Below, piece after piece: positions 14,403-32,041 of a DNA stretch of 32,780 nucleotides; position 1 is the stretch's first letter, and each line of letters starts with the position of its first letter. A program made the position numbers and the translations under genes. Location of the stretch: positions 1 to 32,780 of the forward strand of contig JAITFY010000169.1 in the NCBI GenBank assembly GCA_031281025.1. The letters run 5' to 3'. This DNA is from Treponema sp. GTDB taxonomy: Bacteria; Spirochaetota; Spirochaetia; Treponematales; Breznakiellaceae. Below the pieces are notes generated by a model, which was given only the letters and a program-made list of their open reading frames with translations, ran no database searches and was not told the DNA's origin.

Positions 14403-15809
14403 TTAAATATGTAATAATTCTAAATGTTTGCCTATGTGTTTTACGAGCGCTTTACGGAATTCGTCTTCGTATTGCCGCCACAGTTTATAAAGACGATCTT
14501 TGTAAATAAAAGAATTGTCTTTTTTGCTGCTTAGAATAATACCATAAGTGATATGGATTAGCTGGCGGACTTCGTTGTTTTCGAATAGATTAGGCAACTC
14601 TTCGTCTTTTAAACCGGTAATATCCGGAACTTTTGACAGGTCTGTTGTTACCTGATAGTATTTTTTTGCATCATCAAAAACGCTTAAAGCAAATTTGTGA
14701 ATTTCGCGGTACAGGGAAGGATCGGTGATTGCGACAACACGCATTGCTTCCAGCCAATTTGTTCCTGCTGTTTTTACATGGAAGTTACCTTTTGTTTCGC
14801 GGCTAATAATGGGGAATACGCTGAATTTGTCAGAGCCGGAATGGATACTTAGTTTATATCCAAAATGCCGTGCAATTTCTGCGTGTATTTTAATTTCTTT
14901 TTCGAATTGCGCGATATCTCCAATATAATCAATTCCTTTTTGAAACTCACCGCAAAAACGCGGCGCTATTGTTGCGAATTTAACCTTGGCTTCCAAAAGC
15001 TCGCGGGCAACAAAATAATGCTGCAATGGAGTCGTTACCGAAATTGTTTCATCTATAGAAACTTCAAAATCAGCATCATACTTTTTTTCAAAAAAATTAA
15101 AATAAATATCTTTGGCAAAACCAATAGCCTGCTCGTATACGGCAATACATTCTTTAAGTTCATCCTGAGAAAAAACAATTGGATAATCACCAACGGTTAT
15201 TTTTTCATCAAGGTATCTTGTTTTATAATGATCAGGAATAGTACTATCCAAAACAGCATTGTTTTTTATATGTTCTGAACAGTCCAGAGTTATCATGGTA
15301 AACCCAAGTGAAAGAGCATACTCAACATCTTCTGCGGTTTTAAGATGATCGCCGTCGGCGCCAAAGCCTTTTTTGAATCCTTCGCGGAAAACGGCAAAAG
15401 AGGCAGCATCCAAAACATCTTTGTATGTACGATTTGTAAGAGTCAGCTCGCGGATGGACTGTTGGGCAAACATGGGAAAAACATCATGGTTTTGGAAAAG
15501 ATCAATATGTCCGGGTGTGGCTATTCCAAGCCTGTCTCCCAGCCCAAAACTTACAGGTTTACCTAAACCGCGAACCGGCGATGTAAAAGGAAAAAGTTTA
15601 CGCATAACGCACGCATTTTCGTGTGTTAAGGCAGCCTTGAATTTACCATCGCCAAGCGAAACAGCGTTAAAGCCAAGAGATGTTACATCCGCTCCATTTT
15701 TTGCATCAATTACAATAAAAGTTTCATCATTTTCGCTTGCCATAAAAACAACAAATGAATTAATTTCGTTTATAGATTTTTCAAATACATTAAAACCAGG
15801 GTATAACAT
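14403..15809 (-). CDS. uxaE: Tagaturonate epimerase UxaE
   Basis: This 468-residue protein matches the UxaE family of D-tagaturonate 3-epimerases, which interconvert D-tagaturonate and D-fructuronate. They let a cell route galacturonate into the fructuronate-mannonate branch instead of altronate. Recognisable blocks are FGLGDRLGIATPGHI (about 87-101), GADGDHLKT, TLDCSEHI and KLSIHSGSDKFSVFP, holding candidate metal ligands Asp, His and Glu. No signal peptide is present; it is cytoplasmic. The ATG has GGAG upstream. It sits between GH105 and kduI, so the operon treats saturated galacturonate as well as the unsaturated sugar. UxaC, UxuB and UxuA are needed but not in the window. Confidence 0.88.
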   Translation of the reverse strand: MLYPGFNVFEKSINEINSFVVFMASENDETFIVIDAKNGADVTSLGFNAVSLGDGKFKAALTHENACVMRKLFPFTSPVRGLGKPVSFGLGDRLGIATPGHIDLFQNHDVFPMFAQQSIRELTLTNRTYKDVLDAASFAVFREGFKKGFGADGDHLKTAEDVEYALSLGFTMITLDCSEHIKNNAVLDSTIPDHYKTRYLDEKITVGDYPIVFSQDELKECIAVYEQAIGFAKDIYFNFFEKKYDADFEVSIDETISVTTPLQHYFVARELLEAKVKFATIAPRFCGEFQKGIDYIGDIAQFEKEIKIHAEIARHFGYKLSIHSGSDKFSVFPIISRETKGNFHVKTAGTNWLEAMRVVAITDPSLYREIHKFALSVFDDAKKYYQVTTDLSKVPDITGLKDEELPNLFENNEVRQLIHITYGIILSSKKDNSFIYKDRLYKLWRQYEDEFRKALVKHIGKHLELLHI

Positions 15810-15821
15810 TTTTTCTCCAAA

Positions 15822-16982
15822 TTAACTATTTAACGCTTCTTGTTCCATGCTTGCAAGAATAAAAGGCCCAACACCTTTAAAATCATCTGCACCTTTTGGC
15901 TCACCAATATAGTATTCATAAGAACCATCCCTGTAAGGGTTTCCGCCAAGACCGGCAACAAAACAGATGTCATTCAGATGAAGTTGGCTTTGAGTTCCGT
16001 CAGAGGACAATTCTTCCTGTAGTTTGAGGTTTAAAAGCCCCTGATAACCCGTGTACGCGCTCTTTTTTACTATATTAATTTTGTTTTCTTCTATCAAGCC
16101 TAATCTGAGCATTTTTGTCATAAAGTATACATACATTGAAGATGCAGAACTTTCTGTATAGTTTCCGGCTTCCTGGCCTTTATCCAATACCTGATACCAC
16201 AGACCGCTTTGCGCATCCTGAAAATTAATTAACGGATCTATCAAACGCTGCGTAATACCGCAAAGCGCTTCGAATACTTCTTCGCATAACGCTTTAGACG
16301 GCTGGATAATTTCCAAAACATCCACAATAGCCATGCAATACCAGCCTAACGCCCTTCCCCAAAAATGCGGCGAACAGCCTGTATCGGGGTTAGCCCATTT
16401 TTGCTGCCGTGATTCATCCCAGGCATGATACAAAAGACCGGTTTTTTCATCGCGGGCTTTTGATTCGATTATGGAAAATTGATGCCCAATATCTTTTAAG
16501 CTGTTGGCAAACTCGGCGCCTGTACTATATTTAAAAGCATACTCGGTATAAAACGGCGCTTGCATATACAACCCATCCAGCCACATTTGCCAGGGGTAGA
16601 TAAGCTTGTGCCAATAACCGCCTGATTTTGTCCTTGGGTGTTTACACAACTGTTCTCTTAGTTTTTCGATTGCAATTTTGTATTTTTCTTCGCCGTATTT
16701 TGAATAAAGTAAAAACAAAACTTTTCCTGGATTAATCTGATCCAGGTTATATTCATTTTCCTTGTAACTTAAAATGTCACCCGATGGGGTAATTTTTTCA
16801 TCGTACATGGTTTTTACATAACTACAGAATTCTTCGTTCCCTGTTTTAAGCCCTAGATGAAAAATACTTTGTAAAACAAGTCCATGCTCATAGTGCCATA
16901 ACATTTGCGCTTTCTCATACCGGTTCATGACCGATTGAGCCATGCGAACAGAAATAGGCCCATTCATATTTATGCCAGCCAT
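15822..16982 (-). CDS. GH105 unsaturated rhamnogalacturonyl/galacturonyl hydrolase (YteR/YesR-like)
   Basis: This 386-residue (alpha/alpha)6-barrel enzyme removes the 4,5-unsaturated uronate from the non-reducing end of oligomers made by lyases. Family blocks include YPWQMWLDGLYMQAPFYTEY, whose Asp matches the proposed catalytic acid of YteR, and HFWGRALGWYCMAIVDVLE, GLWYQVLD and NYTESSASSMYVY. No signal peptide is present, so it is cytoplasmic and acts on imported oligomers. The start at 16982 is chosen because it lies 2 bases after the stop of the binding-protein gene. A longer reading to 17078 would add a Cys-rich stretch overlapping that gene and lacks support. Whether it prefers rhamnogalacturonan or homogalacturonan products is not decidable here. 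Confidence 0.9.
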   Translation of the reverse strand: MAGINMNGPISVRMAQSVMNRYEKAQMLWHYEHGLVLQSIFHLGLKTGNEEFCSYVKTMYDEKITPSGDILSYKENEYNLDQINPGKVLFLLYSKYGEEKYKIAIEKLREQLCKHPRTKSGGYWHKLIYPWQMWLDGLYMQAPFYTEYAFKYSTGAEFANSLKDIGHQFSIIESKARDEKTGLLYHAWDESRQQKWANPDTGCSPHFWGRALGWYCMAIVDVLEIIQPSKALCEEVFEALCGITQRLIDPLINFQDAQSGLWYQVLDKGQEAGNYTESSASSMYVYFMTKMLRLGLIEENKINIVKKSAYTGYQGLLNLKLQEELSSDGTQSQLHLNDICFVAGLGGNPYRDGSYEYYIGEPKGADDFKGVGPFILASMEQEALNS

Positions 16983-16984
16983 AG

Positions 16985-18574
16985 TTAGTTCTCTTGCGCT
17001 ATTATTGCAGCGGTTAATGGGGACGATGTCTGGACAAAGCCCAATTCTTTTGCAGCAGCAATCGCAGTGTCCTCCCATTCAGCTCCGCCTATCTGGTCAA
17101 ACTCTGCCAGCCAGCTATCCCAATTTTCGCGGTTAAGAGTCCGGCTGCCGATAACAAACTCGACAATTCCCTGTTCCCAAAAACGCCTTACGTCGGCGTT
17201 TGGCTGGGGAAGAGCATCCGACCCGGTGTTAAGTGTCCAGGGCCTGGATTGCATGTCACGTAAAACCCACTCCGCGCTTTTCTGCCTTCCGGCAGCCGTT
17301 GTCCAAACTGGAAACCGTGCGGCAAGCTCTACATCGCCGTTGAAAAAAACCATATTCCTAAGCTGCGTGTATTTTTGCATCTCAGAGCGGTTGAAGCCGC
17401 GCGCCGGGTCTGGAATACCAGCCACAGTGGGAACTCCATTTTCGTCGAACAGGAAGTTATCGCCTTCGACACCCCAGCCAAAAAGGAAGTAGCTTTCTGA
17501 GGTCATCCACTCCAGAAGGCGTACAATGTGCGCCGCCTTCCCTTGATACATGGCGCGAGTGGAAATAGCGTAGATGCGGAAAGAAGGCGTATCGACGCCC
17601 ACAGACTGGTGGCCGTTAGGACCAACCGGAGGATCTATTACGATCCATTCGCCGTTGGGGAAGTTTATATCAAAGTCACGGTAGTTATTTTGAGCGGCAA
17701 ACGCGGCATTTTGTTCCCTCATTATTCCAAAGGTGCCTTGTTTCCATGCTGCTCGGAAAGTGTCCCGGCTATGACTTACCCAGTTGGGATCTATAACTCT
17801 TTCTTCGACCATTTGCCTAACGAAGCTAAGCGCATCAAAATATTCCGGGTTGCGGATATTCAGGCCTAATTGTTCTTCTTTTAGGTTCCATGTGCCGGCT
17901 ACCCCAAAAGCTCCCATAAGCGGATCAAAACGGCGGCCAAGAGCGCCTTCGTGGACATTGTGATTTTCCAGGAATGCGCCAAAACCAAATGTGTTCATGT
18001 TGCCATTCCAGTCGGCAGGACCTGATGTAAAGGCCCTCATTACGTTCATAAAATCATCGGAGGTTACGGGGACGTCAAGCCCAAGAGCGTCAAGCCAGTC
18101 CTTGCGGATCAGTAAACCTTCGTTTCTTGGAGTCGCACCCGGATCGGCTAACCCCCAGGCCCGGCCGTCTATGGTGGTGAACCTTCGGCTCAACTCATCG
18201 TAGTGCCGTTCGCTTCTGACAGGCATCTGATCGTACAGAGTGTCAACCGGGGCGACAAGCCCAACGTTGACAAGATTCATAAGTACGCCTCTGGAAACCA
18301 TAAATATATCTGGAAGGTTGTTTCCCGCGCCGGCAGCGCTTATCCTGACATCCTGGTCGTTCATAGAAGACGGCAATGCGCTCAGTCTAAGATTGATACC
18401 AAGCTCGTCGCGTACCTTTTGTATAACATGCCAGTTACGGGGAGGCGGACCCGCCTCGGTAACGGCTGCACCGTACCACAACCTAATGGTTACAAGGTCG
18501 CTATCATCCTCCTGGCTGCACCCGCTTAACAGGACTACAATGGCGAATAACGCCAAAATCACTAGTTTTCTCAT
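16985..18574 (-). CDS. ABC transporter solute-binding lipoprotein (LplA/YtcQ-like)
   Basis: This 529-residue family 1 extracellular solute-binding protein has a lipoprotein signal MRKLVILALFAIVVLLSGC with the lipidated Cys at 19. The mature part starts with acidic residues and VTIRLWYGAAV. The later GTFGIMREQNAAF and SESYFLFGWGVEGDNF blocks are typical of the large LplA-type binding proteins that pair with LplB and YtcP permeases in Gram-positive and spirochaete pectin or host-glycan loci. The ATG has AGGAGG. Two 60-base lines sampled inside it (18001 and 18061) are about 48 and 55 percent GC, above many neighbouring lines. The cargo is inferred from context to be an oligogalacturonide or rhamnogalacturonan oligomer. 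Confidence 0.9.
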   Translation of the reverse strand: MRKLVILALFAIVVLLSGCSQEDDSDLVTIRLWYGAAVTEAGPPPRNWHVIQKVRDELGINLRLSALPSSMNDQDVRISAAGAGNNLPDIFMVSRGVLMNLVNVGLVAPVDTLYDQMPVRSERHYDELSRRFTTIDGRAWGLADPGATPRNEGLLIRKDWLDALGLDVPVTSDDFMNVMRAFTSGPADWNGNMNTFGFGAFLENHNVHEGALGRRFDPLMGAFGVAGTWNLKEEQLGLNIRNPEYFDALSFVRQMVEERVIDPNWVSHSRDTFRAAWKQGTFGIMREQNAAFAAQNNYRDFDINFPNGEWIVIDPPVGPNGHQSVGVDTPSFRIYAISTRAMYQGKAAHIVRLLEWMTSESYFLFGWGVEGDNFLFDENGVPTVAGIPDPARGFNRSEMQKYTQLRNMVFFNGDVELAARFPVWTTAAGRQKSAEWVLRDMQSRPWTLNTGSDALPQPNADVRRFWEQGIVEFVIGSRTLNRENWDSWLAEFDQIGGAEWEDTAIAAAKELGFVQTSSPLTAAIIAQEN

Positions 18575-18587
18575 ATAATCCTCCTGC

Positions 18588-19505
18588 TTAACCCTTCACG
18601 CTCCCTATCAATGTTCCCTTGGTGAAGTACTTCTGTATGAATGGATAGGCGATAACCATTGGAACGGCCGCCAGGAACACACTCGCTGCCCTTATCGCTT
18701 CCAGCGGGGCATCGGCGAACGCACCAACTTCCAAAGCTTCACTCATGGCTGCGCCTAAAAGAATGTTGCGCAGAAGTACAGGTAAAACCAGAAGCGTATC
18801 ATCATGTATATAAAGCATTGCGTTAAAGAAGTTGTTCCAGAAAGCAACGCCATAAAAAAGACCTACTGTCATAATAATCGGTTTTGAAAGAGGGATAATC
18901 AGCATAATTAGTACTCTAAATTCGCTGGCTCCATCAATTCTTGCCGATTCCTTTAGTTCATCGGGAATGCCTTCGAAGAATTTGCGCATAATAAGAAGGT
19001 TGTATACGCTAATCGCAACCGGCAGGTATACCGAAGCAAGAGTGTTGGAAAGCCCAACACCCACAACTACAAGGTAGGTTGGAATAAGACCTACCTGGAA
19101 CAGGTATGGAATTAATACCATTAAGGAAAATAATTTCCTTCCTGGAAGAGTTTTAACCGAAAGCGCATACGCCATAGGAATTGTAAAAAACAACGCTACA
19201 ATTACGCCAAAAGCAAGTATCTGAAAGCTGTTCATAAAGGCGCGTAAAAAACCGTCATTGCCAAGCAATGTCCTGTACGCTGCAAAAGACCATTCCCACG
19301 GGGCTTTGAACATCATCTGAAGATTGGTACCGCTAAAATCCCCTACAGGCGGCCGCATGGAAAGCGTGATTGTACTCCACAGCGGAATCGCTACAACTAC
19401 CAGGATGAACAGCAGAAATATATTAATGATAACAAAATATATCCTGTCGCTGCCGGTAATCCTTACGGCGGCGCCTTTCACTTTGATGTTTTTCTCTGTT
19501 TTCAT
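18588..19505 (-). CDS. CUT1 ABC sugar permease (YtcP-like)
   Basis: This 305-residue inner-membrane permease is predicted to have six membrane helices. The first is at about 22-44 (YFVIINIFLLFILVVVAIPLW). The EAA loop that contacts the ATPase is PDELKESARIDGASEFRVLIMLIIPLSKP (cited for its E-ARIDGA-----IPLSKP core). The C terminus PFIQKYFTKGTLIGSVKG is diagnostic of YtcP/CUT1 proteins. The ATG has GAGGTGG upstream. It is 12 bases after the LplB-like gene and 13 before the binding-protein gene, so the three form one importer. No ATP-binding subunit is encoded nearby; CUT1 systems commonly share an MsmX-type ATPase from elsewhere. Confidence 0.93.
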   Translation of the reverse strand: MKTEKNIKVKGAAVRITGSDRIYFVIINIFLLFILVVVAIPLWSTITLSMRPPVGDFSGTNLQMMFKAPWEWSFAAYRTLLGNDGFLRAFMNSFQILAFGVIVALFFTIPMAYALSVKTLPGRKLFSLMVLIPYLFQVGLIPTYLVVVGVGLSNTLASVYLPVAISVYNLLIMRKFFEGIPDELKESARIDGASEFRVLIMLIIPLSKPIIMTVGLFYGVAFWNNFFNAMLYIHDDTLLVLPVLLRNILLGAAMSEALEVGAFADAPLEAIRAASVFLAAVPMVIAYPFIQKYFTKGTLIGSVKG

Positions 19506-19517
19506 GGAACCACCTCG

Positions 19518-20504
19518 TTAAAAAATCGAAGAATCGTCAAATTTCTTGACAAACCAGTTGGATACAAGAATCAGACCCAGGGCAATCACTCCCTTGAATA
19601 GTCCGACCGCAGTCGCAAGGCTGTACTGGAAGTTCAGAAGCCCTTGACGATAAACCCATGTATCGATAATGTCCGCAACATCCAAAACCGGAAGCGAATA
19701 TAACATGAATATCTGTAGAAAACCCGCATTAAGTATCGTTCCCAGTCGCAAGAGCAATACTATAACGATTACAGGGCGAATAGACGGTAAAGTTATGTAG
19801 AGAGTTTTCTTCCAGGCGCTTGCCCCCTCGACGGTGGCAGCTTCGTATAAGGTTGGATCAATACCGACAAGCGCAGCAATGAAGATAATTGCGCTCCAGC
19901 CCATTGAGTGCCAGATTTCTGAAATGATGACAACCCAAGGGAAAGTCCGCGTATCGGTGAGGAAGGCAACCGGATCGGCTCCTAACGCTACACGTATGTC
20001 GTTGATTATGCCACCCGAAGGATTCAGAAGAACCCTAAGAATACCAAGCATAATAACCCATGACAAAAAGTGCGGAAGATAGGACAATGTCTGCACTGCC
20101 TTTGCCAAACCGCGCCTGGTTGATTCAAAAACCGCCACTGCCAGCAGAATAGCGATTGGAAGGCCTAAAAATAACTTGGCAAAACTATAACCCAGCGTAT
20201 TTCGCATGAGCTGGAAAAAATAGTGCGAAGTTATGAAGTTATAGAAGTGATGAACGCCGGCCCAGGCACTGCCAAAAACACCGCGCCCCTTGCCGGATTC
20301 AATGCCAATTTCGTCCAGAAAAGCGTCTGGAACGCCAAGATTTGGCATAAATTCCCTAAAGGCAATCTGCGCATTCCAAATAGGCAGATACTGGAAAACG
20401 ATAAAATGCAGCAAAGGAAGAAACAAAAGGAGGTATACAGAACGGTGCTTGACAACCCTCCCTAACAAATTTCCACTATGCAAAGCTTTGACTTGATTTT
20501 TCAT
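19518..20504 (-). CDS. CUT1 ABC sugar permease (LplB-like)
   Basis: This 328-residue inner-membrane permease has six hydrophobic helices. After a short basic N terminus, YLLLFLPLLHFIVFQYLPIW then QIAFREF is the typical LplB opening. The EAA loop EAATVEGASAWKKTLYITLPS and the end GLILVSNWFVKKFDDSSIF are also typical. It is the first gene of the import and catabolism operon. The ATG has no Shine-Dalgarno sequence. A -10-like TATCCT lies 8 bases before it, so the transcript may be near-leaderless. A direct repeat TTGACAT-N10-TTGACAT stands immediately upstream, a candidate binding site for the neighbouring AraC-type regulator. Confidence 0.92.
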   Translation of the reverse strand: MKNQVKALHSGNLLGRVVKHRSVYLLLFLPLLHFIVFQYLPIWNAQIAFREFMPNLGVPDAFLDEIGIESGKGRGVFGSAWAGVHHFYNFITSHYFFQLMRNTLGYSFAKLFLGLPIAILLAVAVFESTRRGLAKAVQTLSYLPHFLSWVIMLGILRVLLNPSGGIINDIRVALGADPVAFLTDTRTFPWVVIISEIWHSMGWSAIIFIAALVGIDPTLYEAATVEGASAWKKTLYITLPSIRPVIVIVLLLRLGTILNAGFLQIFMLYSLPVLDVADIIDTWVYRQGLLNFQYSLATAVGLFKGVIALGLILVSNWFVKKFDDSSIF

Positions 20505-20512
20505 ATACAGTT

Positions 20513-20546
20513 AGGATACATTTTGACATCCAGAAAAAGTTGACAT
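20513..20546 (-). promoter_or_regulatory. Candidate operator (direct repeat) and -10 box of the LplB-led operon
   Basis: TTGACAT occurs at 20523-20529 and 20540-20546 on the + strand (ATGTCAA on the coding strand), with a 17-base period. A -10-like TATCCT is at 20518-20513, 8 bases before the ATG. The expected -35 position (AACTTT) is poor, as in activator-dependent promoters. Seen: the exact repeat. Inferred: binding by the AraC-family protein encoded next door. The proximal copy falls between -35 and -10, so repression is also possible. Confidence 0.45.
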
Positions 20547-20574
20547 GTTATTGGATTTTTCCGTCTTTTCTTAT

Positions 20575-23500
20575 TTATTTACGCAAGTGCCCCGGCGGAA
20601 CTCCGTATATTTTTTTAAAAACACGGCAGAAATACGCATGGTCATGAAAACCGGTGCGGGAGGCAATTTCCTGGATAGTATCATCAGTTTGCCGTAAATA
20701 ATCCGCTGCCATAAAAATTCGCAGGCGGCTTAAGTAATCCCATAAAGAAAGCCCCATTTCCCGGTGGAAAATACGGGAAAGGTAATCTTCGCTGGCATTT
20801 ATGGAATCGGCCAGTTTCCAGCGGGAAAATTGGGAATGAATATGCTGATCAAAATAGTGAATTGTTTTTTTAACCAGCGCCCCTGTATGCGGCGGTAAAA
20901 TTTCCGCGCCGTCTACAACAGCCTGGATACGGGCTTTAAATTCCTGAGAAGAAACAGCCGCAGAATGACAAATAATAAGCCTGGAATATTGATTTAATGC
21001 TGATAAATTCATGGCATTATCTATTTTTTCACAGATCATCAACATGGGAACCATTACAGTAAAAGGATGACGGCGCACCATAATAGCGCCCTCGATATTA
21101 AGGGAATTAAAAACAATTAAAGATGGATTTACTTCTCCTGCAATATCATTAAATGATGCCATAGAGTCTATATGTATTTTTTCAAACAGGCTTTTTTTGT
21201 TTTTCTGATCTTGCTGTTCAAAAAGTTGTTCCATATAACTATCTGAATATCCTTTGCAGCCAATAAAAAGAACCGTTCTTTTTTTCTTTGATTTTAATGC
21301 AAATTCAACTGTATCTATCAGGGCAGCGGCGGAATCAAGCGAGCCTTCTGCGCCTGCCGGCATACCATAACAAAGAAAGGGAACTCCTGCAAATCTGCTT
21401 TTATTTTTTAGACTAACAACTTTTAAAAAATCCCCAGAAGAAGCGCCTGCTGCATTCCAGACAACAAAGGCAGTTTTTCCAGATATGGTTTTTTCCATAT
21501 CCGTTATTTTAAGCAAATGAGAAAATTCATCCGGCAGCATTTCCGGCTGTGAAAGAACAAAAACATGATCCTTTACTCCAACAGGATTTTTATAAAGTTC
21601 ATGCCCCGTTAATGTAGGCCAGGGCAATGTAATTTTACAATGATTGCGATTTAAGGAAAAATCGCCCCCATGCATTAGTATGACTCTTTCTGCAAGAAGT
21701 AAACCAAACTGCCTTGCCATTTCCGTTCTGCCGGTACTTTCTTTTTTTGTTTTCCCATGAAATGTAATGGAAAGACCATCATAAGTTATTTCGGCTGAAT
21801 ACGATTTTTCGTACTGTTCACGGATAAGCGTAAAACACTGGACAAGCCTGAGTGTATCACCGGCTAACAGCGGGAAAGCTCCAATTTTTGGCAGTAATTC
21901 TTCAAGATCAAAAATAGTTTTTCTTAAAGAAAGTTCATTTAACTTTGCAAGAGTAAAATCCATAATGCTGCCTGCCTCGGCTTCTTTGGAAGATACAAAA
22001 GCTTTTGTTTTTTTTATATCATCAAGCAGAACATCAATTTTACCGTTAAACTTTCCGCTTTCGCATTTTTTTTGAATAATTTCAAGTTTTTCTTCTACCC
22101 CCTGCAGCGGATTAAAAAGACCGTTTTCCAAAAACTGCAAAAAATCCGTCTTTGCCTGTTCCGCCTGCTCTGCAATACGTTTTGCCCGGATAGTCTCTTC
22201 CAGAAGAAATATACCTTTTAGGGCATAACTTACAGAGGAACGAAGCTCTTCAAAAATTACACCATTGTTAATTGGAGCATTATGCACAAAATACCCAAGC
22301 GAAAAATTATTAATAAAAAGAGGCTGAACCATAAAAATACCGTCGCTGTACTGCGGTTTTAAGGACATGGGAACAAGAAGACGTGAAGGAAAAGGCACAT
22401 CCTTGATAGCGTCGATTCCTTCGACAGAAAATCCTCCAACAAAAATCGATGTTTTTTCGTCTTTGTACAATACAATTGCAACAGTGTTAATACCGATTCC
22501 GGGCAGATGTTTTGCAAGATTATTTACAAGAGATATACGATTCCGTGTTCCAAGAAGATCACATTTTAGGGAATTAAGAGCCGTGTTCCATCTTGCTGTT
22601 TCGTGGCGTTCCTGCGCATTTATTCTTTCACGAATTTTAATTATACTGCTGTAAAGAGCGGGTTCCAGTGCAAAAAATTCATCGGTTAGCTTTAGATGCA
22701 GAATCTTAAAATCGTTTATTAATTTTAAAAGATTGTCCGGCTCTTTACCTGCATTAAAGTATTGTACAAGGGATTTTTCAAAATGCCGGAAAAAACTTTC
22801 GCGAGTTTCGTATAACAAAGAATGAATTACAGGCATCACATAACTATTAACATCATCTTTTTCCAGTTTTAAATAATCAGCAACCATCTTTACAAGATTT
22901 TCTTTATTTATAACAAAATCCCCGCCTGATTTTTGCGGCAGTTTATCTCCAGGGTAAACACATCCGCAGGATTCCCGTATGATAATTTCGCAATTAAGAA
23001 GAACATCGCCTGTCCCCTTTTTTTTCCGGTTCATAATGTTAAGCAGCAGCTTAAAAGATTCCTTGCTAGCCTCAGTAAACGGCATGTTAACAGTTGAAAG
23101 CAGGCTTTCTGTGGCACGGCTTTCCTGAGAATTGTTGAATCCTGCAGCATGGTAATCTACAGGAACATGAAAACCGTTCTCTGCAAAATAGTTAACCGCT
23201 CCCAGTGTCATAAGATCGCTGGAACCTATCAGGGTATCAAAGTCCTTTCCGGGAGTGAGTTTTTTTTGCTCATAAAGTTCGGCTGCCGCGGCTGCCCCTT
23301 CATGCCAGTCAAATGAACTTGTTACAAGCTGCTCACGGTGACTGCCTATTAACAAACCCGCTTCTTTTAACGCGCTGTAGTAGCCTTCAAGGCGCTCTGT
23401 TGCAGGCTGATTAAAATTGGGGCCGCGTAAAAAGGCGATTTTTTTAGCTCCATGAACTTTGATACAATGATTAACCAAATGTTTCATTCCGTTATAGGCA

Positions 23501-23838
23501 TCAAAAATAACACAAGGATGTCCAGGCGATTTATACCCCAGGGTAACGTAAGGAAGAGAATCAAAACCAGAATGAAAGGAATCCATTTTTTCCTGTGATT
23601 GAGCATATATAATGGAAGAACTCCAGCTGATACAACCATCCAGGTTTTCTTCATTTGCCAGCAAATAAACAGGGTTACGCAAATTTTCAAAATTTTCCGG
23701 GGCATTTAACCTGCCGCCCGGGAAAATAAACAAACTGGAATTTTCTGTTACAGCGGAGCGGACAAAACTAGCCCACATATTTCTGGAAACGCCTGTATGA
23801 ATAGATGCAAGAACAAGACCTATTCTCTTTTTACCCAT
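20575..23838 (-). CDS. AraC-type regulator with LacI-like sensor and degenerate kinase/receiver modules
   Basis: This 1087-residue regulator is built in tandem. A LacI/periplasmic-binding type sugar sensor spans about 5-290 (KRIGLVLASIHTGVSRNMW...ESCGC). A helical linker follows, then a GAF-like region at about 440-555 and a HisKA-like helix at about 555-640. There is a worn HATPase-like region (about 640-740, ending ERVILMHGGDFSL) and two receiver-like segments (about 755-970). The C terminus is an AraC helix-turn-helix (about 988-1087; WKLADSINASEDYLSRIFHRE and FHDHAYFCRVFKKIYGVPPGHLR). In the HisKA-like motif Asn572 stands where the phospho-His should be. The ATP-binding N and G1 boxes are absent, and the receiver motif reads IVFNSLN where an Asp is expected. 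It is probably a one-component sugar-responsive activator of the pectin genes. The ATG lies 6 bases after TATAAT without a Shine-Dalgarno sequence. Confidence 0.85.
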   Translation of the reverse strand: MGKKRIGLVLASIHTGVSRNMWASFVRSAVTENSSLFIFPGGRLNAPENFENLRNPVYLLANEENLDGCISWSSSIIYAQSQEKMDSFHSGFDSLPYVTLGYKSPGHPCVIFDAYNGMKHLVNHCIKVHGAKKIAFLRGPNFNQPATERLEGYYSALKEAGLLIGSHREQLVTSSFDWHEGAAAAAELYEQKKLTPGKDFDTLIGSSDLMTLGAVNYFAENGFHVPVDYHAAGFNNSQESRATESLLSTVNMPFTEASKESFKLLLNIMNRKKKGTGDVLLNCEIIIRESCGCVYPGDKLPQKSGGDFVINKENLVKMVADYLKLEKDDVNSYVMPVIHSLLYETRESFFRHFEKSLVQYFNAGKEPDNLLKLINDFKILHLKLTDEFFALEPALYSSIIKIRERINAQERHETARWNTALNSLKCDLLGTRNRISLVNNLAKHLPGIGINTVAIVLYKDEKTSIFVGGFSVEGIDAIKDVPFPSRLLVPMSLKPQYSDGIFMVQPLFINNFSLGYFVHNAPINNGVIFEELRSSVSYALKGIFLLEETIRAKRIAEQAEQAKTDFLQFLENGLFNPLQGVEEKLEIIQKKCESGKFNGKIDVLLDDIKKTKAFVSSKEAEAGSIMDFTLAKLNELSLRKTIFDLEELLPKIGAFPLLAGDTLRLVQCFTLIREQYEKSYSAEITYDGLSITFHGKTKKESTGRTEMARQFGLLLAERVILMHGGDFSLNRNHCKITLPWPTLTGHELYKNPVGVKDHVFVLSQPEMLPDEFSHLLKITDMEKTISGKTAFVVWNAAGASSGDFLKVVSLKNKSRFAGVPFLCYGMPAGAEGSLDSAAALIDTVEFALKSKKKRTVLFIGCKGYSDSYMEQLFEQQDQKNKKSLFEKIHIDSMASFNDIAGEVNPSLIVFNSLNIEGAIMVRRHPFTVMVPMLMICEKIDNAMNLSALNQYSRLIICHSAAVSSQEFKARIQAVVDGAEILPPHTGALVKKTIHYFDQHIHSQFSRWKLADSINASEDYLSRIFHREMGLSLWDYLSRLRIFMAADYLRQTDDTIQEIASRTGFHDHAYFCRVFKKIYGVPPGHLRK

Positions 23839-23859: not shown

Positions 23860-25206
23860 TTATTGATAGATAAAGGGTTTTTCTACGCCTTTTACGTTTA
23901 TTTCGTTGAATTCAATGTCTTTTGTATTGATTAACCTTATGGATTTTTCTGTAACTTCCGGCAAGCCAAGATACATTTCCGATTCTTCCGGGTTAATTCC
24001 TGATTGTTCATCGATAGAGAATTCGCAGCGGTATAAACGTATATTTTGAATAGGCGATTCGGGGAGGCCTGCGATAAAGCCAGCCGAAGCACGACAGCCA
24101 GTTGCCTGTATATCAGAAATAACGATATCCCTAATTAAAGGGGTTGCATCATTAACCGGAAGAGCTTCCGTTGTAAAAAAGCCGTCTTCCAATTTGGCTC
24201 CGCAGCGATAAAACATATTTATGGCAAGCGGGCACAGGTTGTTTTCCATTGTGAGTTTTCTGAATTCCAGGTTGTGAATATGTCCTCCCCTGCCCCTGCG
24301 GGTTTTAATCCGTATACCGCGGTCGGTTCCTTTAAATACACAGTCTTCTGTTAAAACATTAGAGATTCCTGCCGCAGTTTCGCTGCCGATAACGATACCG
24401 CCGTGCCCGCTTCCCACCGTGCAGCCCCGTACTGTTATCCGCCTGCAGGGTTTTCCCACTCGAATACCGTCTTCGCCGGCGCCCGATTTGATAGCGATAC
24501 CGTCGTCTCCAACGGTAATTTCGCAGTTTTGGACTGTTACATCTTCGCATGAGTCAATATCGATGCCATCGGTATTTGGCGCATCTTGAGGATTTTGAAT
24601 TTTAAGACCGGAAATAACCACATCTTTACAGTACAATGGGTGCAGTGTCCAAAAAGGAGAATTACGCAGAGTAATATCTTCCAGGGTTATTTTTGAACAG
24701 CTGCGGAATTGCACAAGCGGGGGACGTAAAAACTGTATTTGTCTGCCGCCGCCGCCCGAAGCCTGTTTTTTATAGTCTTTATTTAGGCTTGCCAGTTTTA
24801 GTTCTTCCGGTGTTTGAGGTTCATTCTGACCGCGTTTTCTTTTTTCGCCCAGTTTATCCCACCAGATTTGCCCGTTGCCTTCCAGAATTCCTTTTCCAGA
24901 GACGGTAATATTGCTTTGTTCATTTGCAAACAACAATGGGTGCATGGCATAACACTCCGCCCCTTCCCATCTTGTCCAAACCGGCTGGTAACGTTCCGGC
25001 TCTGGAATAAAGGAGATAACCGCTCCCTCATCCAATAAAAGCGTAGTATTGGAAAACAGCTCAAGCGGACCGGTACTCCAAATACCTTTTTCTATTTTGA
25101 GAGTTCCGCCGCCTATTTCTTTTATTGATTGTAACGCGGCGAAAAAGGCCTGGGAATTATCGTGAATTCCATCGCCTTTTCCGCCGAATGATATCAAGTT
25201 AAACAT
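23860..25206 (-). CDS. GH28 polygalacturonase, apparently cytoplasmic
   Basis: This 448-residue right-handed beta-helix glycosidase hydrolyses alpha-1,4 galacturonosyl bonds. All four GH28 signature motifs are intact: NTD (211-213), GDD (233-235), GHGG (His268) and RIK (299-301). The N terminus MFNLISFGGKGDGIHDNSQA is the family's own start and no signal peptide precedes it, so it should act in the cytoplasm on imported oligogalacturonides, probably as an exo-enzyme. The ATG at 25206 is preferred over an adjacent TTG. There is no Shine-Dalgarno sequence, and the stop of the upstream barrel-protein gene is 3 bases away, so translation is probably coupled. It produces saturated galacturonate, the substrate for the UxaC-UxaE branch. 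Confidence 0.92.
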   Translation of the reverse strand: MFNLISFGGKGDGIHDNSQAFFAALQSIKEIGGGTLKIEKGIWSTGPLELFSNTTLLLDEGAVISFIPEPERYQPVWTRWEGAECYAMHPLLFANEQSNITVSGKGILEGNGQIWWDKLGEKRKRGQNEPQTPEELKLASLNKDYKKQASGGGGRQIQFLRPPLVQFRSCSKITLEDITLRNSPFWTLHPLYCKDVVISGLKIQNPQDAPNTDGIDIDSCEDVTVQNCEITVGDDGIAIKSGAGEDGIRVGKPCRRITVRGCTVGSGHGGIVIGSETAAGISNVLTEDCVFKGTDRGIRIKTRRGRGGHIHNLEFRKLTMENNLCPLAINMFYRCGAKLEDGFFTTEALPVNDATPLIRDIVISDIQATGCRASAGFIAGLPESPIQNIRLYRCEFSIDEQSGINPEESEMYLGLPEVTEKSIRLINTKDIEFNEINVKGVEKPFIYQ

Positions 25207-25209
25207 CAA

Positions 25210-26649
25210 TTAGAATCTAAAAACAAACTTAAAGTAAAGCCCGCCTGCTTCTACAAGCCTGTCAGATGTAGTCCATTCGGTATCTTTTTGCTTGTACTTT
25301 ATTTGGGCATCTGGTCTTGCTTCCAGCATGTGGTTGAGTGAAAGACCTTTATTCTGGTTAAAACCAATAACAAATTTTCCACTGTTTCTAAAGTTGATAC
25401 CGCCATATACTTCATAGCCAAAGTTTTGCATAAAGGTAAAGGTATGATCAAAGTCTTCTTTGTCAGCGGCGCTAGCTTTGGTTTTCCATTGCGCATCCAG
25501 TAAAGTTCCTGCAATAAAACCGCCGCCTACAAAAAAATGTTCTTGTATTGTTACCATTGTATCCAAAGACAATCTGATTATCTGCAATGAATCACGGTAG
25601 TAATGATCGACCATATTAAAAGTTCCCGCTAAATTAAGCTCCACATCGTAGTCCGGCAGCGTGTAACGGAGACCTGTTCCAAGGGCTGCGGAAATATTTG
25701 TGCGCATACTTGCCGTAGTAACGGGAGGCGCGTAAACAGCGGCTTTTCCAAGAACATCGATATTTCTTTGATGGAATACAAATGCAAGACCAATAGGAAG
25801 AGAAATGTTATCGGCTATTCCATCTAAGGTATAACGCGAAGAAAACCCGGCTGAATGTCCCGAATCTATCCCCGACACATTAAAACCATACGCCACTTCC
25901 GCGTTAAGTTTATTGCCTCCAACTTCCATATCTGTAAATTGCGCTAAAAGAAATGCCTGAGGAGCATATTCATTAAGTACTATATTCCCATGAGTTACCA
26001 TTCCGTCTGTGTTATACAACCGCTGGGTGGCTTCGTTAAACATATAGTTTGTTGCTGCGGAAACCTTAAAATTATCAAAAATAGCTCCAACTTCGTATGT
26101 AAGATCGGTCTTTAGGTTCATGAGATAATGAATGTCTTCCAGTTTATACTTTGACACTACTGCAAAATGCGAACCTTGAACTTTATAACGGCCGGCTTTC
26201 ATGAAAAGTTCAAAAGGCATTTCCATTTCTATAGCTTCAAAAACATTTACCCTTCCGTATACAACATCAAGAGTAAATGATGGAAAGTTGTTTGGATTGG
26301 ACATTCTGCGTTCGCCAGCATTTTCCATAGAAAGAGGATGATAAAAAGAACCGGGACGATCTATGGAATAAATCCTAAAATATCCTTCCATCCATGGGAA
26401 AGGATTAAAATTAATATGCAAATTACCGAGTGTATAAAACCCGTTTTTGGTTGCAGGTTCAGTTTGGCTTGCAAAATAAGCTCCTGTTGCCGTAGTGTCG
26501 GGAATTTTCATGGAATCATCCGCCAGAGCATTTCCAATTGTATAAATTGTAGTAAAATCTGCGGAGAAGGAAACTGTCGCATCCGAGATTTGAGCTTGCG
26601 CATTAATCGCAAAAGCCATCAAAATTATGGCAAAAAAAGCATTTTTCAT
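25210..26649 (-). CDS. Outer-membrane beta-barrel protein paired with GH28
   Basis: This 479-residue exported protein has a cleavable signal peptide (MKNAFFAIILMAFAINAQA, cut after AQA). The rest shows alternating polar/hydrophobic strands and a terminal strand ending LYFKFVFRF, with the C-terminal Phe expected of barrel-assembly substrates. It is a clear paralogue of the protein at 30518-32041: both have GRVNV(F/I)E, KAG(R/K), the GHS(A/F)G block, (R/K)NIDVL and QIKY(K/R)Q. I do not recognise a named family; it may be a spirochaete porin. The start at 26649 is chosen because GGGGG lies at proper spacing and the predicted transcript start (about 26660) falls after the ATG at 26664. A role in passing oligouronides is inferred from context. 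Confidence 0.75.
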   Translation of the reverse strand: MKNAFFAIILMAFAINAQAQISDATVSFSADFTTIYTIGNALADDSMKIPDTTATGAYFASQTEPATKNGFYTLGNLHINFNPFPWMEGYFRIYSIDRPGSFYHPLSMENAGERRMSNPNNFPSFTLDVVYGRVNVFEAIEMEMPFELFMKAGRYKVQGSHFAVVSKYKLEDIHYLMNLKTDLTYEVGAIFDNFKVSAATNYMFNEATQRLYNTDGMVTHGNIVLNEYAPQAFLLAQFTDMEVGGNKLNAEVAYGFNVSGIDSGHSAGFSSRYTLDGIADNISLPIGLAFVFHQRNIDVLGKAAVYAPPVTTASMRTNISAALGTGLRYTLPDYDVELNLAGTFNMVDHYYRDSLQIIRLSLDTMVTIQEHFFVGGGFIAGTLLDAQWKTKASAADKEDFDHTFTFMQNFGYEVYGGINFRNSGKFVIGFNQNKGLSLNHMLEARPDAQIKYKQKDTEWTTSDRLVEAGGLYFKFVFRF

Positions 26650-26666
26650 TTTATTATCCCCCATAA

Positions 26667-30517: not shown

Positions 30518-32041
30518 TTACCAGGAAAAAACAAGTTTGGTAAATATACCGCCCCGTTCAAAGAGCCCGCTTTCCGTTAAGGTACCAGCTTGTCTGTATT
30601 TTATTTGAGTTTCTGGAAGAGCTTCCAGGCTGTTGCTCATGGCAAGTCCTTTTGCGCAGTTGTATCCAATAAGAAATCTTGCTCTTTCCATTTGAAGCCC
30701 CATGAATACTTCGTAGCCAAGATTTTCCGTTAAAAAGAAATCGTGGTTAGAAATATCCTGTGTATTTGTTATGCCCGGTTTTAAAACCCAATACAAGTCT
30801 TGTAAAGTGCCAAGGTAGATACCGCCGCCGATAAAGTACCGGTTCTGATATGTAAGGCGGAAATCACATGAAGCGGACAGAATACTGAGTGTCTGGCGGT
30901 AAATATGCGCGATATTATTTACCGAAAACCCCAGGTTAAGTTCTCCTCTTATGTTATCGTCATCATAATGCGCGCCAATACCTACGCCAATACGCATTGC
31001 CTGACGCAGACTTTTGGTTCTTATATCGTTGGGATTATGGTATCCGCCGTCGGTGTACAGTTTGGTATAATCAGAAGCGTCTCTGGAAACGGAAGTGCCG
31101 GCAAGTACATCGATATTTTTTTCCTGAAAAATCGCACCAAAACCAACTGGGATGGAAAGTTTTGACGAAACCGGCAATTTAAGACCTGTGTTTAAACCAA
31201 AACTGTGTCCAGAATGAATATGCATGGCATTGTAGGCATAAAGCACTTCCAAAGATAAACCGCCCAGCGGCGTATTAATATTTCTAAAGGTTAGGGCTGC
31301 ATGAACTGGAAGAACGGTATCCCCTGTTTCATGTCCGTGAAATATTGTGGAAGTTAAATCTTCATCAAAAAATTCCGGCAGTTCTTCGTTAAGCCTCATA
31401 AGGGTTGTAAGAGTAAGAGAGATAGAATCTGCGAAGTCATACGGATTATGATAAACTGACTGAACCTGAAAGGCATATCTGTTCATGGTTTTAAGAGTGT
31501 TCATAACAGAATCCGCTCCGTAACGGGAAACTCTGTTAAAATGCGAAGGCGTGGTATCAAACTTTCCTGCTTTTAAATAGACGTCCAGCGGAAGATCAAG
31601 GCCAAGTCCTTCTATAACATTAACTCGTCCAAAAGCAGAGTCTACTGCAAAGTCATCGAATGTTTTTGCGCTGTGATCTTCCAGCTGCAAGGGCATATAC
31701 GGAGAGCCCGGCCTATACTGCGCTAGAAGTTTCATATATATTTCTATATTGGAAACAGGATGATAATGGATATTAAAACTAATGGAAGAATAATAACCGT
31801 TTCTGCCGGAAATATAATTTCCCTGTTGGTCCAGATAATAAAATCCAGGTGCAGGCGATCCGGCTCCCGCAAAGTACGATTGTTCTTCGCTCTGCAGGCC
31901 GAGCGTCATCATGTTGGTAAAATCGCCGGACAGACGAAGTATGGGGCCATTTTCTCCGTCTACCTGTGCGATAAACTGACTATATGACATTACACTCGCT
32001 GCCAAAAGAAACAGCCCTATCAAAAAATTCCGTTTATTCAT
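30518..32041 (-). CDS. Outer-membrane beta-barrel protein paired with PL9
   Basis: This 507-residue protein has a signal peptide MNKRNFLIGLFLLAASVMSYS and a barrel-like remainder that ends in an aromatic residue (FTKLVFSW). It is a paralogue of the protein at 25210-26649, with shared blocks FGRVNVIEG, LKAGKF, SHFNRVSRYG, GHSFG, EKNIDVL, NLGYEVF and QIKYRQ. No known family is recalled. The ATG has GGAGG at good spacing. It is the first gene before PL9 and lies 25 bases upstream of it, so one transcript probably carries both. Passage or capture of oligogalacturonides across the outer membrane is inferred from context; a structural role is possible. Confidence 0.75.
   Translation of the reverse strand: MNKRNFLIGLFLLAASVMSYSQFIAQVDGENGPILRLSGDFTNMMTLGLQSEEQSYFAGAGSPAPGFYYLDQQGNYISGRNGYYSSISFNIHYHPVSNIEIYMKLLAQYRPGSPYMPLQLEDHSAKTFDDFAVDSAFGRVNVIEGLGLDLPLDVYLKAGKFDTTPSHFNRVSRYGADSVMNTLKTMNRYAFQVQSVYHNPYDFADSISLTLTTLMRLNEELPEFFDEDLTSTIFHGHETGDTVLPVHAALTFRNINTPLGGLSLEVLYAYNAMHIHSGHSFGLNTGLKLPVSSKLSIPVGFGAIFQEKNIDVLAGTSVSRDASDYTKLYTDGGYHNPNDIRTKSLRQAMRIGVGIGAHYDDDNIRGELNLGFSVNNIAHIYRQTLSILSASCDFRLTYQNRYFIGGGIYLGTLQDLYWVLKPGITNTQDISNHDFFLTENLGYEVFMGLQMERARFLIGYNCAKGLAMSNSLEALPETQIKYRQAGTLTESGLFERGGIFTKLVFSW

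Follow-up and report, generated by a model that had tools for sequence, protein, structure and literature searches.

How does a regulator with a sugar-binding domain at one end and a DNA-binding domain at the other come to hold, between the two, something that resembles a histidine kinase without the residues that carry phosphate? The question is raised by the open reading frame (ORF) at 20575..23838 on the reverse strand (-) of Treponema sp. contig JAITFY010000169.1 (assembly GCA_031281025.1), the whole 32,780-nucleotide stretch of which was analyzed and is called the window here. A first-pass annotation had described the ORF as a LacI-like sensor joined to an AraC domain through a relic hybrid kinase whose phospho-residues had been replaced. 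Comparison with relatives confirmed, at the level of sequence, that a dead hybrid kinase lies in this ORF. We consider it quite probable that the protein is a one-component activator descended from a hybrid two-component protein, with its target kept.

The middle of the regulator

The two ends of the 1087-residue protein (ATG start, stop codon at 20575-20577) were confirmed by Pfam as a LacI-like sensor and an AraC DNA-binding domain, with Peripla_BP_3 at residues 129-291 (2e-16) and HTH_18 at residues 1009-1087 (E 6e-21). LacI-family solved structures also matched the N terminus, with E values reaching 5.7e-17. Ligand-binding and DNA-binding domains are present on one chain, and the protein falls within the AraC/XylS family. 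The LacI-type domain (residues 1-292; 22963..23838, -) has no LacI DNA-binding headpiece, the LacI helix-turn-helix family being absent from the Pfam matches of the window protein, and is presumed to be cytosolic. The AraC-type domain occupies residues 986-1087 (20578..20883, -). Between the ends, HisKA, HATPase, and Response_reg gave no Pfam match in the single window protein at E values up to 10. Pfam, NCBIfam, and phmmer saw only the ends when given the lone protein, which was not counted against the relic, and a contig-level search returned one related locus, L005, aligning only to residues 934-1086 (26% identity). Because a single sequence is blind to the kinase, relatives were needed to reveal it.

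Relatives over the full length were gathered by whole-genome searches (genomes are cited by G numbers and loci by L numbers). In three of them (G055, G056, and G047), Pfam found the order Peripla_BP_3, HisKA, HATPase, Response_reg, HTH_18, and a fourth intact relative (G477) was recognized by its motifs in the alignment. The main alignment had 105 rows, the window included; short sequences were left out (G360, G361, G359, G308, and G608, all cut by contig ends, and G389 and G390). In this alignment and in one of 28 rows, Asn572 of the window protein (codon 22123..22125, -) falls in the phospho-His column of the intact hybrid kinases. As first annotated, it lies in a HisKA-like helix, within relic HisKA (dimerization and histidine phosphotransfer [DHp]) helices recognized by profile comparisons at residues 553-640 (21919..22182, -). 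The HATPase (catalytic and ATP-binding [CA]) domain that follows, residues 641-745 (21604..21918, -), is a shrunken relic; the N and G1 boxes already reported lost are missing from the 105-row alignment, and so is G2. The first pseudo-receiver (residues 746-856; 21271..21603, -) carries Asn795 in the Asp column of both alignments. In the second (residues 857-985; 20884..21270, -), Asn911 (codon 21106-21108) occupies the phospho-Asp column of the intact kinases in the 105-row alignment, with which a profile alignment agrees; a gap in the 28-row alignment shifted it five columns from the Asp. IGCK stands where the acidic pair of this receiver is expected. Asn had thus been read correctly in place of Asp, with one correction: even in the intact proteins the first receiver is degenerate, its acidic pair being absent from them in the 105-row alignment. 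Ahead of the kinase relic, residues 293-552 (22183..22962, -) comprise a linker and a segment called GAF-like from its sequence pattern alone. The stretch at residues 385-556 is conserved across 42 relics, and a profile search with the GAF-like segment gave no clear match to solved structures (best E 0.15).

Phospho-His, the N, G1, and G2 boxes, the receiver Asp, and the acidic pair, by which a hybrid histidine kinase is recognized, were all absent from the window protein, and profile comparisons together with trees pointed to descent from a HisKA-HATPase-REC chain. When a profile built only from 42 relics was compared with one built only from the 4 intact proteins, the DHp, CA, first receiver (REC1), and second receiver (REC2) regions matched with probabilities of 97.6%, 96.2%, 96.9%, and 95.1%, against at most 1.2% in 12/12 column-shuffled controls. 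The whole 555-985 region matched at 99.6% (E 6e-24). An 18-relic profile over the same residues also matched solved histidine kinases (6nb0, E 3.9e-7; 2c2a, E 4.7e-7), with unrelated proteins starting at about 0.07. Matches of the separate receivers to solved structures were weak: PleD at E 0.01 for the first (receivers made up 6/7 matches) and KdpE at E 0.1, with KdpE/PhoB at 0.1 and above, for the second (16/21). REC1 and REC2 profiles matched each other poorly (14%) even among the intact proteins. Since an intact kinase stands in the same place between the same ends, the dead middle has a working homologue, and the kinase could hardly have arisen from the relic. The passage from hybrid two-component protein to one-component regulator, as first proposed, is supported by these four relatives of the same layout.

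Descent and selection

Residue loss was tallied in 67 full-length relics, selected by a length of 1000-1145 amino acids (G014, G321, G388, and other shorter rows fell outside). The His column held N 19, E 16, S 12, D 9, H 3, A 3, Q 2, T 1, I 1, and V 1; the second-receiver Asp column held N 16, E 10, S 9, D 9, G 7, R 5, and others; and the first-receiver Asp column held D 27, N 24, and others. Such a mix at the His and Asp columns looks like drift after loss and not like a new conserved residue. To say that His is lost in every relative would be too strong, as it is retained in three of the 67 (G028, G368, and G456) and in the reduced protein G388, and Asp stands in the second-receiver column in 9/67. 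What does hold is that none of these His-bearing proteins has the ATPase motifs and that none of the nine has the acidic pair, as read from the alignment. Other residues were kept: A556, P577, P656, D661, G725, R922, and P931 were each retained in >90% of the 67 relics. Early relics such as G310 still match HisKA (2e-10), with Gln in the His column, and G556, an early-branching partial row, retains a G2-like stretch.

The dead domains are clearly under purifying selection. With six close pairs pooled, the ratio of nonsynonymous to synonymous substitution rates (dN/dS; 95% limits in parentheses) was 0.26 (0.20-0.36) for DHp, 0.25 (0.19-0.33) for CA, 0.27 (0.20-0.33) for the first receiver, and 0.20 (0.14-0.26) for the second, so that no upper limit in the relic domains exceeded 0.36; the ends gave 0.13 (LacI) and 0.06 (AraC). 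In one intact pair, the values were 0.29 (0.14-0.58) for DHp, 0.24 (0.15-0.39) for CA, and 0.40 and 0.18 for the receivers. Within the wide limits of that pair, selection on the dead domains is no weaker than on the intact ones.

To keep the columns of the trait itself out of the trees, only the sensor part (residues 1-553) was used to build them. The larger tree had 101 rows, after removal of G731, G341, G538, and G315 (sensor missing or row truncated), and the smaller one had 45 rows chosen from the 105. On the 101-row tree, the 85 rows with AraC output and the re-armed rows described below formed one clade (SH-aLRT 99), and 80 rows, none with the ancestral kinase motifs, were split at 95 from the intact rows and G551, which formed a clade of their own (88) beside the relics. 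On the 45-row tree, G055/G477 and then G056/G047 branched successively before the rest (97/92 and 87/88), and the non-intact rows stood together at 87/88. The two trees disagree on whether the intact rows form one clade, and in both a single loss is enough for the relics. The regulator family is widespread, and on these sensor trees its relics group together, either beside the intact kinases or above them. A direction from intact to relic is plausible because the intact kinases share their motifs and their place with all histidine kinases. The G551 protein (L136:4342-7281; 979 amino acids), which has an AraC output and no kinase or receiver motifs, groups with the intact kinases on the 101-row tree and is perhaps a second, independent loss.

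The signalling scaffold, which the first-pass annotation had taken to be kept, is not needed everywhere. In the proteins of G407 (two copies) and G408 (699-751 amino acids), DHp and ATPase are missing and the sensor is followed by the last receiver and AraC; in G388 (777 amino acids), the DHp helices are retained, and the ATPase and the first receiver are lost. These reduced proteins occupy at least two places on the 101-row tree.

A change of another kind was seen in G002 and G020, from the window's genus. Their sensors are 43-44% identical to window residues 3-581 and precede an intact HisKA-HATPase-REC-HPt-like chain without AraC (L063:4781-8374 and L064:5978-9706, both on the + strand; Hpt fell below the cut-off). 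The sensors lie deep inside the relic clade (100/99 on the 45-row tree), and their kinase part shares 74% identity across 340 residues with a further hybrid kinase of G020. We rejected the idea that these proteins survive from the ancestral state: forcing them into a group with the intact kinases costs 216 log units, and excluding them from the clade of the window's family gave p 0.002. Given their deep position, this cost, and the identity to a resident kinase, the sequences indicate that a relic-clade sensor was re-fused in G002 and G020 to a working kinase of the resident hybrid-kinase family. The pectin permease orthologue treated below is absent in G020, and the best match in G002 reaches only 38%.

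Some irregular genes of the family were also recorded. At L075 (G341; 338 + 670 amino acids) and L155 (G731), the LacI part lies in a separate ORF just upstream of the remaining regulator, either through fission or through a frameshift. Genus g22 has a poly-C tract in the first pseudo-receiver of the regulator, of C8 in G355 (L099) and C14 in G363 (L103, about 2383-2396), where the AraC part lies in another frame (ORFs of 811 and 270 amino acids). Tracts of C13-C14 stand at contig ends in G361 (start of L106) and G360 (ends of L104/L105). All nine g22 genomes that were searched contained runs of at least 11 C or G, as did G000 and G011 (overlapping positions counted). The g22 tract could reflect phase variation or an assembly artefact.

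The predicted operator and its presumed target genes

A candidate operator with the family consensus AAAGTCGGAATAGTCCAATAAnnnnTCTGnATTTT lies at 20534..20568 (-), between the regulator and the permease gene that follows it, and a -10-like box, TATCCT (20513..20518, -), lies 15 bases past it at conserved TATnnT columns. The pattern of the regulator-permease gap across the family is AAAGTCGGAATAGTCCAATAA-4-TCTGnATTTT, 15 bases, TATnnT; columns outside it carry little information. A site over the -35 position ahead of a -10 box fits an AraC-type activator. The operator is placed like such a site, and activation and DNA binding by the window protein are predicted.

The operator model passed the 99% null threshold in 38/41 training intergenics, and its log-likelihood was 320, versus 46-53 for shuffled sequences and 86 for regions upstream of the regulator. 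G058, G049, G056, and G047 were held out of training. Out-of-sample scores of 16.0-16.5 were obtained at two intact-kinase loci (G056 and G047) and at two early relics (G058 and G049). Among permease orthologues for which the regulator was not taken as adjacent, 16/23 scored >12, with 23.0 in G407 and G408; all 23 were counted, although G482, one of the 16, actually adjoins the regulator, G242 and G352 have it within a few kilobases, and G359 and G369 have short upstream stretches. None of 19 paralogous permease controls passed (best score 7.7), a 20th being too short for scoring. Mere coding conservation at the end of the regulator was rejected as an explanation of the operator, as 26/49 sites lie wholly past the stop codon and sites also stand before remote permeases and a GH28 gene.

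Sites were also counted genome-wide. A search of 16 genomes that allowed at most one mismatch gave 29 sites, compared with 7 when the pattern was reversed. Of the 29, 7 lay in the regulator-permease gap or at the end of the regulator, two preceded a permease in another place, and one preceded a GH28 gene far from the regulator (G248); 15 of the remaining 19 were inside ORFs. In the window's own genome, a looser pattern (at most one mismatch) gave 61 matches versus 43 for the reversed control, and the three other exact matches were inside ORFs. Within the window, at most three mismatches returned one match, the operator itself with zero mismatches, versus 1.2 expected by chance, so this count alone is uninformative.

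The neighborhood of the regulator in the window is, by its gene content, a pectin/galacturonate locus. Seventy bases past the regulator, two ATP-binding cassette (ABC) permease genes (18588..20504, -; one permease at 19518-20504) are presumed to be the first genes of the target operon. They are followed by genes for a solute-binding protein (SBP_bac_1 at 23.6 bits, under the Pfam cut-off of 26), a GH88 enzyme, and the tagaturonate epimerase UxaE (14403..18574, -). A GH28 polygalacturonase gene (23860..25209, -) lies 21 bases upstream of the regulator, and genes for KduI-like and short-chain dehydrogenase proteins occur farther along the locus. Two large proteins of the locus (window 25210-26664, 484 amino acids, and 30518-32041, 507 amino acids) matched no Pfam family at E 0.001.

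Core pectin genes were taken as the two permeases, the binding protein, GH88, GH28, and UxaE at 40% identity or more. At least one lay in the fetched stretch of 61/85 relics (relic fragments counted), 4/4 intact proteins, 1/4 reduced proteins, 0/2 re-armed proteins, and 0/1 for G551, and none was found near 16 sensors with other outputs, the flanks of which were mostly short. A pectin permease resembling the one at window 19518-20504 or its neighbor lay on the same strand, at most 600 bases downstream, in 42 of the 78 relics having at least 1 kb of downstream sequence. The regulator family was held by 35/38 genomes with a first-permease orthologue in the window's family, and the orthologue was lacking in 7/42 genomes with the regulator family, both re-armed genomes among them. 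This co-occurrence was counted by hand from two slightly different genome draws, and its Fisher p of 1e-27 ignores shared ancestry.

In G389 (L109:6474-7430) and G390 (L110:4895-5743), of genus g158, the same pectin locus holds only an ORF of 318 or 282 amino acids, covering the last pseudo-receiver and AraC. Their operators are either weak or out of place, scoring 12.6 at an unusual distance and 2.8. These short ORFs represent either loss of the sensor or a broken gene.

Explanations and related systems

The account that we favor with good confidence is that the window protein is a one-component activator derived from a hybrid two-component protein that kept its target. The sequences show that the domains are homologous, that the catalytic residues are gone, that intact homologues occupy the same place, that the relic is under selection, that regulator and transporter co-occur, and that the operator is conserved; from these we infer the ligand, activation as opposed to repression, DNA binding, and a mechanical signal path. 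The ancestor would have consisted of a LacI-type sensor, a GAF-like segment, HisKA, HATPase, a degenerate receiver, a second receiver, and AraC. In the present protein, a soluble pectin breakdown product would bind the LacI-like domain in the cytosol, and the dead DHp/ATPase/receiver scaffold, which probably sets the dimer, would relay the change mechanically to the AraC domain, ATP-driven phosphotransfer being absent. The AraC domain would then bind the operator just upstream of the permease gene, covering the -35 region, and switch on the operon for the pectin-oligomer ABC transporter and GH88.

Pectin neighbors are common to intact and relic loci, and so is the operator at 2/4 intact loci. 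It is reasonably likely that the family forms a series, from a working hybrid kinase to a dead kinase under selection, to a kinase partly or wholly deleted, and to a relic-type sensor re-armed with the kinase-receiver-HPt part of resident paralogues, with the operator and transporter target constant from the working kinase to the reduced forms. We do not put this higher because the operator was found at only 2/4 intact loci and because the trees differ on the intact rows.

Several results weigh against the one-component account or limit it. Of the four intact-kinase loci, G055 and G477 gave no operator, and in G056 and G047 the site and the end of the regulator coding sequence overlap; across the family, only 26/49 sites are wholly past the regulator stop codon. 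Regions upstream of the regulator passed the operator threshold in 3/41 cases, 7/23 of the non-adjacent permease orthologues fell below it, and G387, one of the 16 that passed, had no regulator match in a genome search. No core pectin gene was present in the fetched stretch of 24/85 relics; some of these are cut by contig ends, and others may have a different target. Neither the co-occurrence nor the site counts take account of kinship, including the near twins G468/G469, G451/G452, and G407/G408, or of incomplete genomes. A single-sequence structure model of residues 546-985 reached a predicted local distance difference test score (pLDDT) of 39.8 and a predicted template modeling score (pTM) of 0.24 and was discarded.

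Three other explanations were weighed. The relic could be a phosphorylation-independent partner that docks onto a separate working hybrid kinase and so stays in a two-component network, as RetS reportedly does with GacS. Working hybrid kinases are plentiful in the genus (49 matching stretches in G020) and the dead DHp part is under selection. However, the sole kinase gene among the scanned window genes is about 17 kb distant and adjoins a sigma-54 response regulator of its own, the window regulator has its own ligand-binding and DNA-binding ends, and the permease operators of G407 (with two copies of the regulator) and G408 score 23.0 although their regulators have lost DHp and ATPase. We regard such a partner role as improbable. 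A decaying spacer, of which only the length matters while the LacI and AraC ends do the work, has similarly poor prospects. It would suit a spacer that G388 has lost the ATPase and the first receiver, that both copies in G407 and the protein of G408 have lost DHp as well, and that the relic domains evolve faster than the ends, but dN/dS values of 0.20-0.27 with upper limits no higher than 0.36, near those of the intact pair with its wide limits, are not those expected of a mere spacer, and neither is the retention of A556, P577, P656, D661, G725, R922, and P931 noted above.

Least credible, and in our judgment very improbable, is a persisting phospho-control in altered form, with the receivers phosphorylated or otherwise modified at the changed positions. 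Asp, Asn, or Glu does make up 35/67 at the second-receiver Asp column, but the acidic pair is missing in all nine Asp-bearing relics, and Gly, Arg, Lys, Phe, and Tyr occur there too, which looks like drift. A one-component activator with a mechanically coupled scaffold remains the explanation we prefer.

Its parts have counterparts among known systems. Escherichia coli XylR is likewise a one-component activator in which a LacI-type sugar sensor drives an AraC domain; its domains are joined almost directly, whereas about 690 residues (linker, GAF-like segment, dead DHp/ATPase, and two dead receivers) separate them in the window protein. The hybrid two-component systems of Bacteroides share the order of kinase, receiver, and AraC with the intact relatives G055, G056, G047, and G477, but they have periplasmic sensors and working phosphotransfer, unlike the window protein with its LacI-type sensor and its phosphotransfer residues gone. 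The pseudo-kinases DivL and RetS, solved entries of which were matched by the 18-relic profile at E 1.3e-4 and 0.09, keep a histidine-kinase fold without normal kinase chemistry, as the window relic appears to; they act on other kinases, whereas the window protein ends in a DNA-binding output and retains little of the ATP-binding site. The yes rhamnogalacturonan locus of Bacillus subtilis has a similar gene set (an ABC transporter, a GH88/GH105-like enzyme, and an AraC-type regulator), but YesM/YesN is a separate two-component pair and not a single chain. Receivers without the phospho-Asp, such as RitR and ChxR, may be compared with the receiver-like segments of the window protein, and among them Asn is, after Glu, the most frequent replacement (16%; PMC4395418). 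These proteins consist of a receiver and an output domain, whereas in the window protein the kinase and the receivers died within one polypeptide; for the latter, homology to intact receivers was found and the receiver fold model was unreliable (pLDDT 39.8).

LacI-AraC fusions, hybrids with AraC output, Asp-less receivers, and pseudo-kinases are thus each known. In the open-licence literature, screened by titles and abstract openings, nothing was found on a dead hybrid kinase between LacI and AraC, or on the conversion of an entire hybrid kinase to a one-component regulator that kept its operator. The usual evolutionary story has two-component systems arising from one-component ones. The reverse step would be readable here from living sequences, with intact relatives, intermediates, and reduced forms, and with a conserved operator as the yardstick. 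If this is true, mechanical coupling can take over from a phosphorelay within one scaffold while the target genes stay unchanged, which raises the experimental question of how a receiver-AraC output that once depended on phosphate answers a ligand through a dead kinase. At this locus, intact-type and relic-type regulators could be compared on one operator. Such a descent would also explain the large LacI-AraC proteins of this group whose middle is blank in Pfam.

Parts of the regulator also occur in other settings. Stand-alone proteins of 231-238 amino acids (L060:1417-2112, L062:1471-2187, and L017:1411-2127) resemble the last pseudo-receiver and AraC, being 33-35% identical to window residues 885-1087 with the Asp retained, and each adjoins a protein of 346-347 amino acids; the L060 protein, the only one scanned, gave no Pfam receiver match. 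Elsewhere, the LacI/GAF-like sensor module is joined to diguanylate cyclase (GGDEF; L054, L055, L058, and L018), SpoIIE phosphatase (L053), and histidine kinase (HATPase; L056 and L059) outputs, so that, judging from these fusions, the module is a general input.

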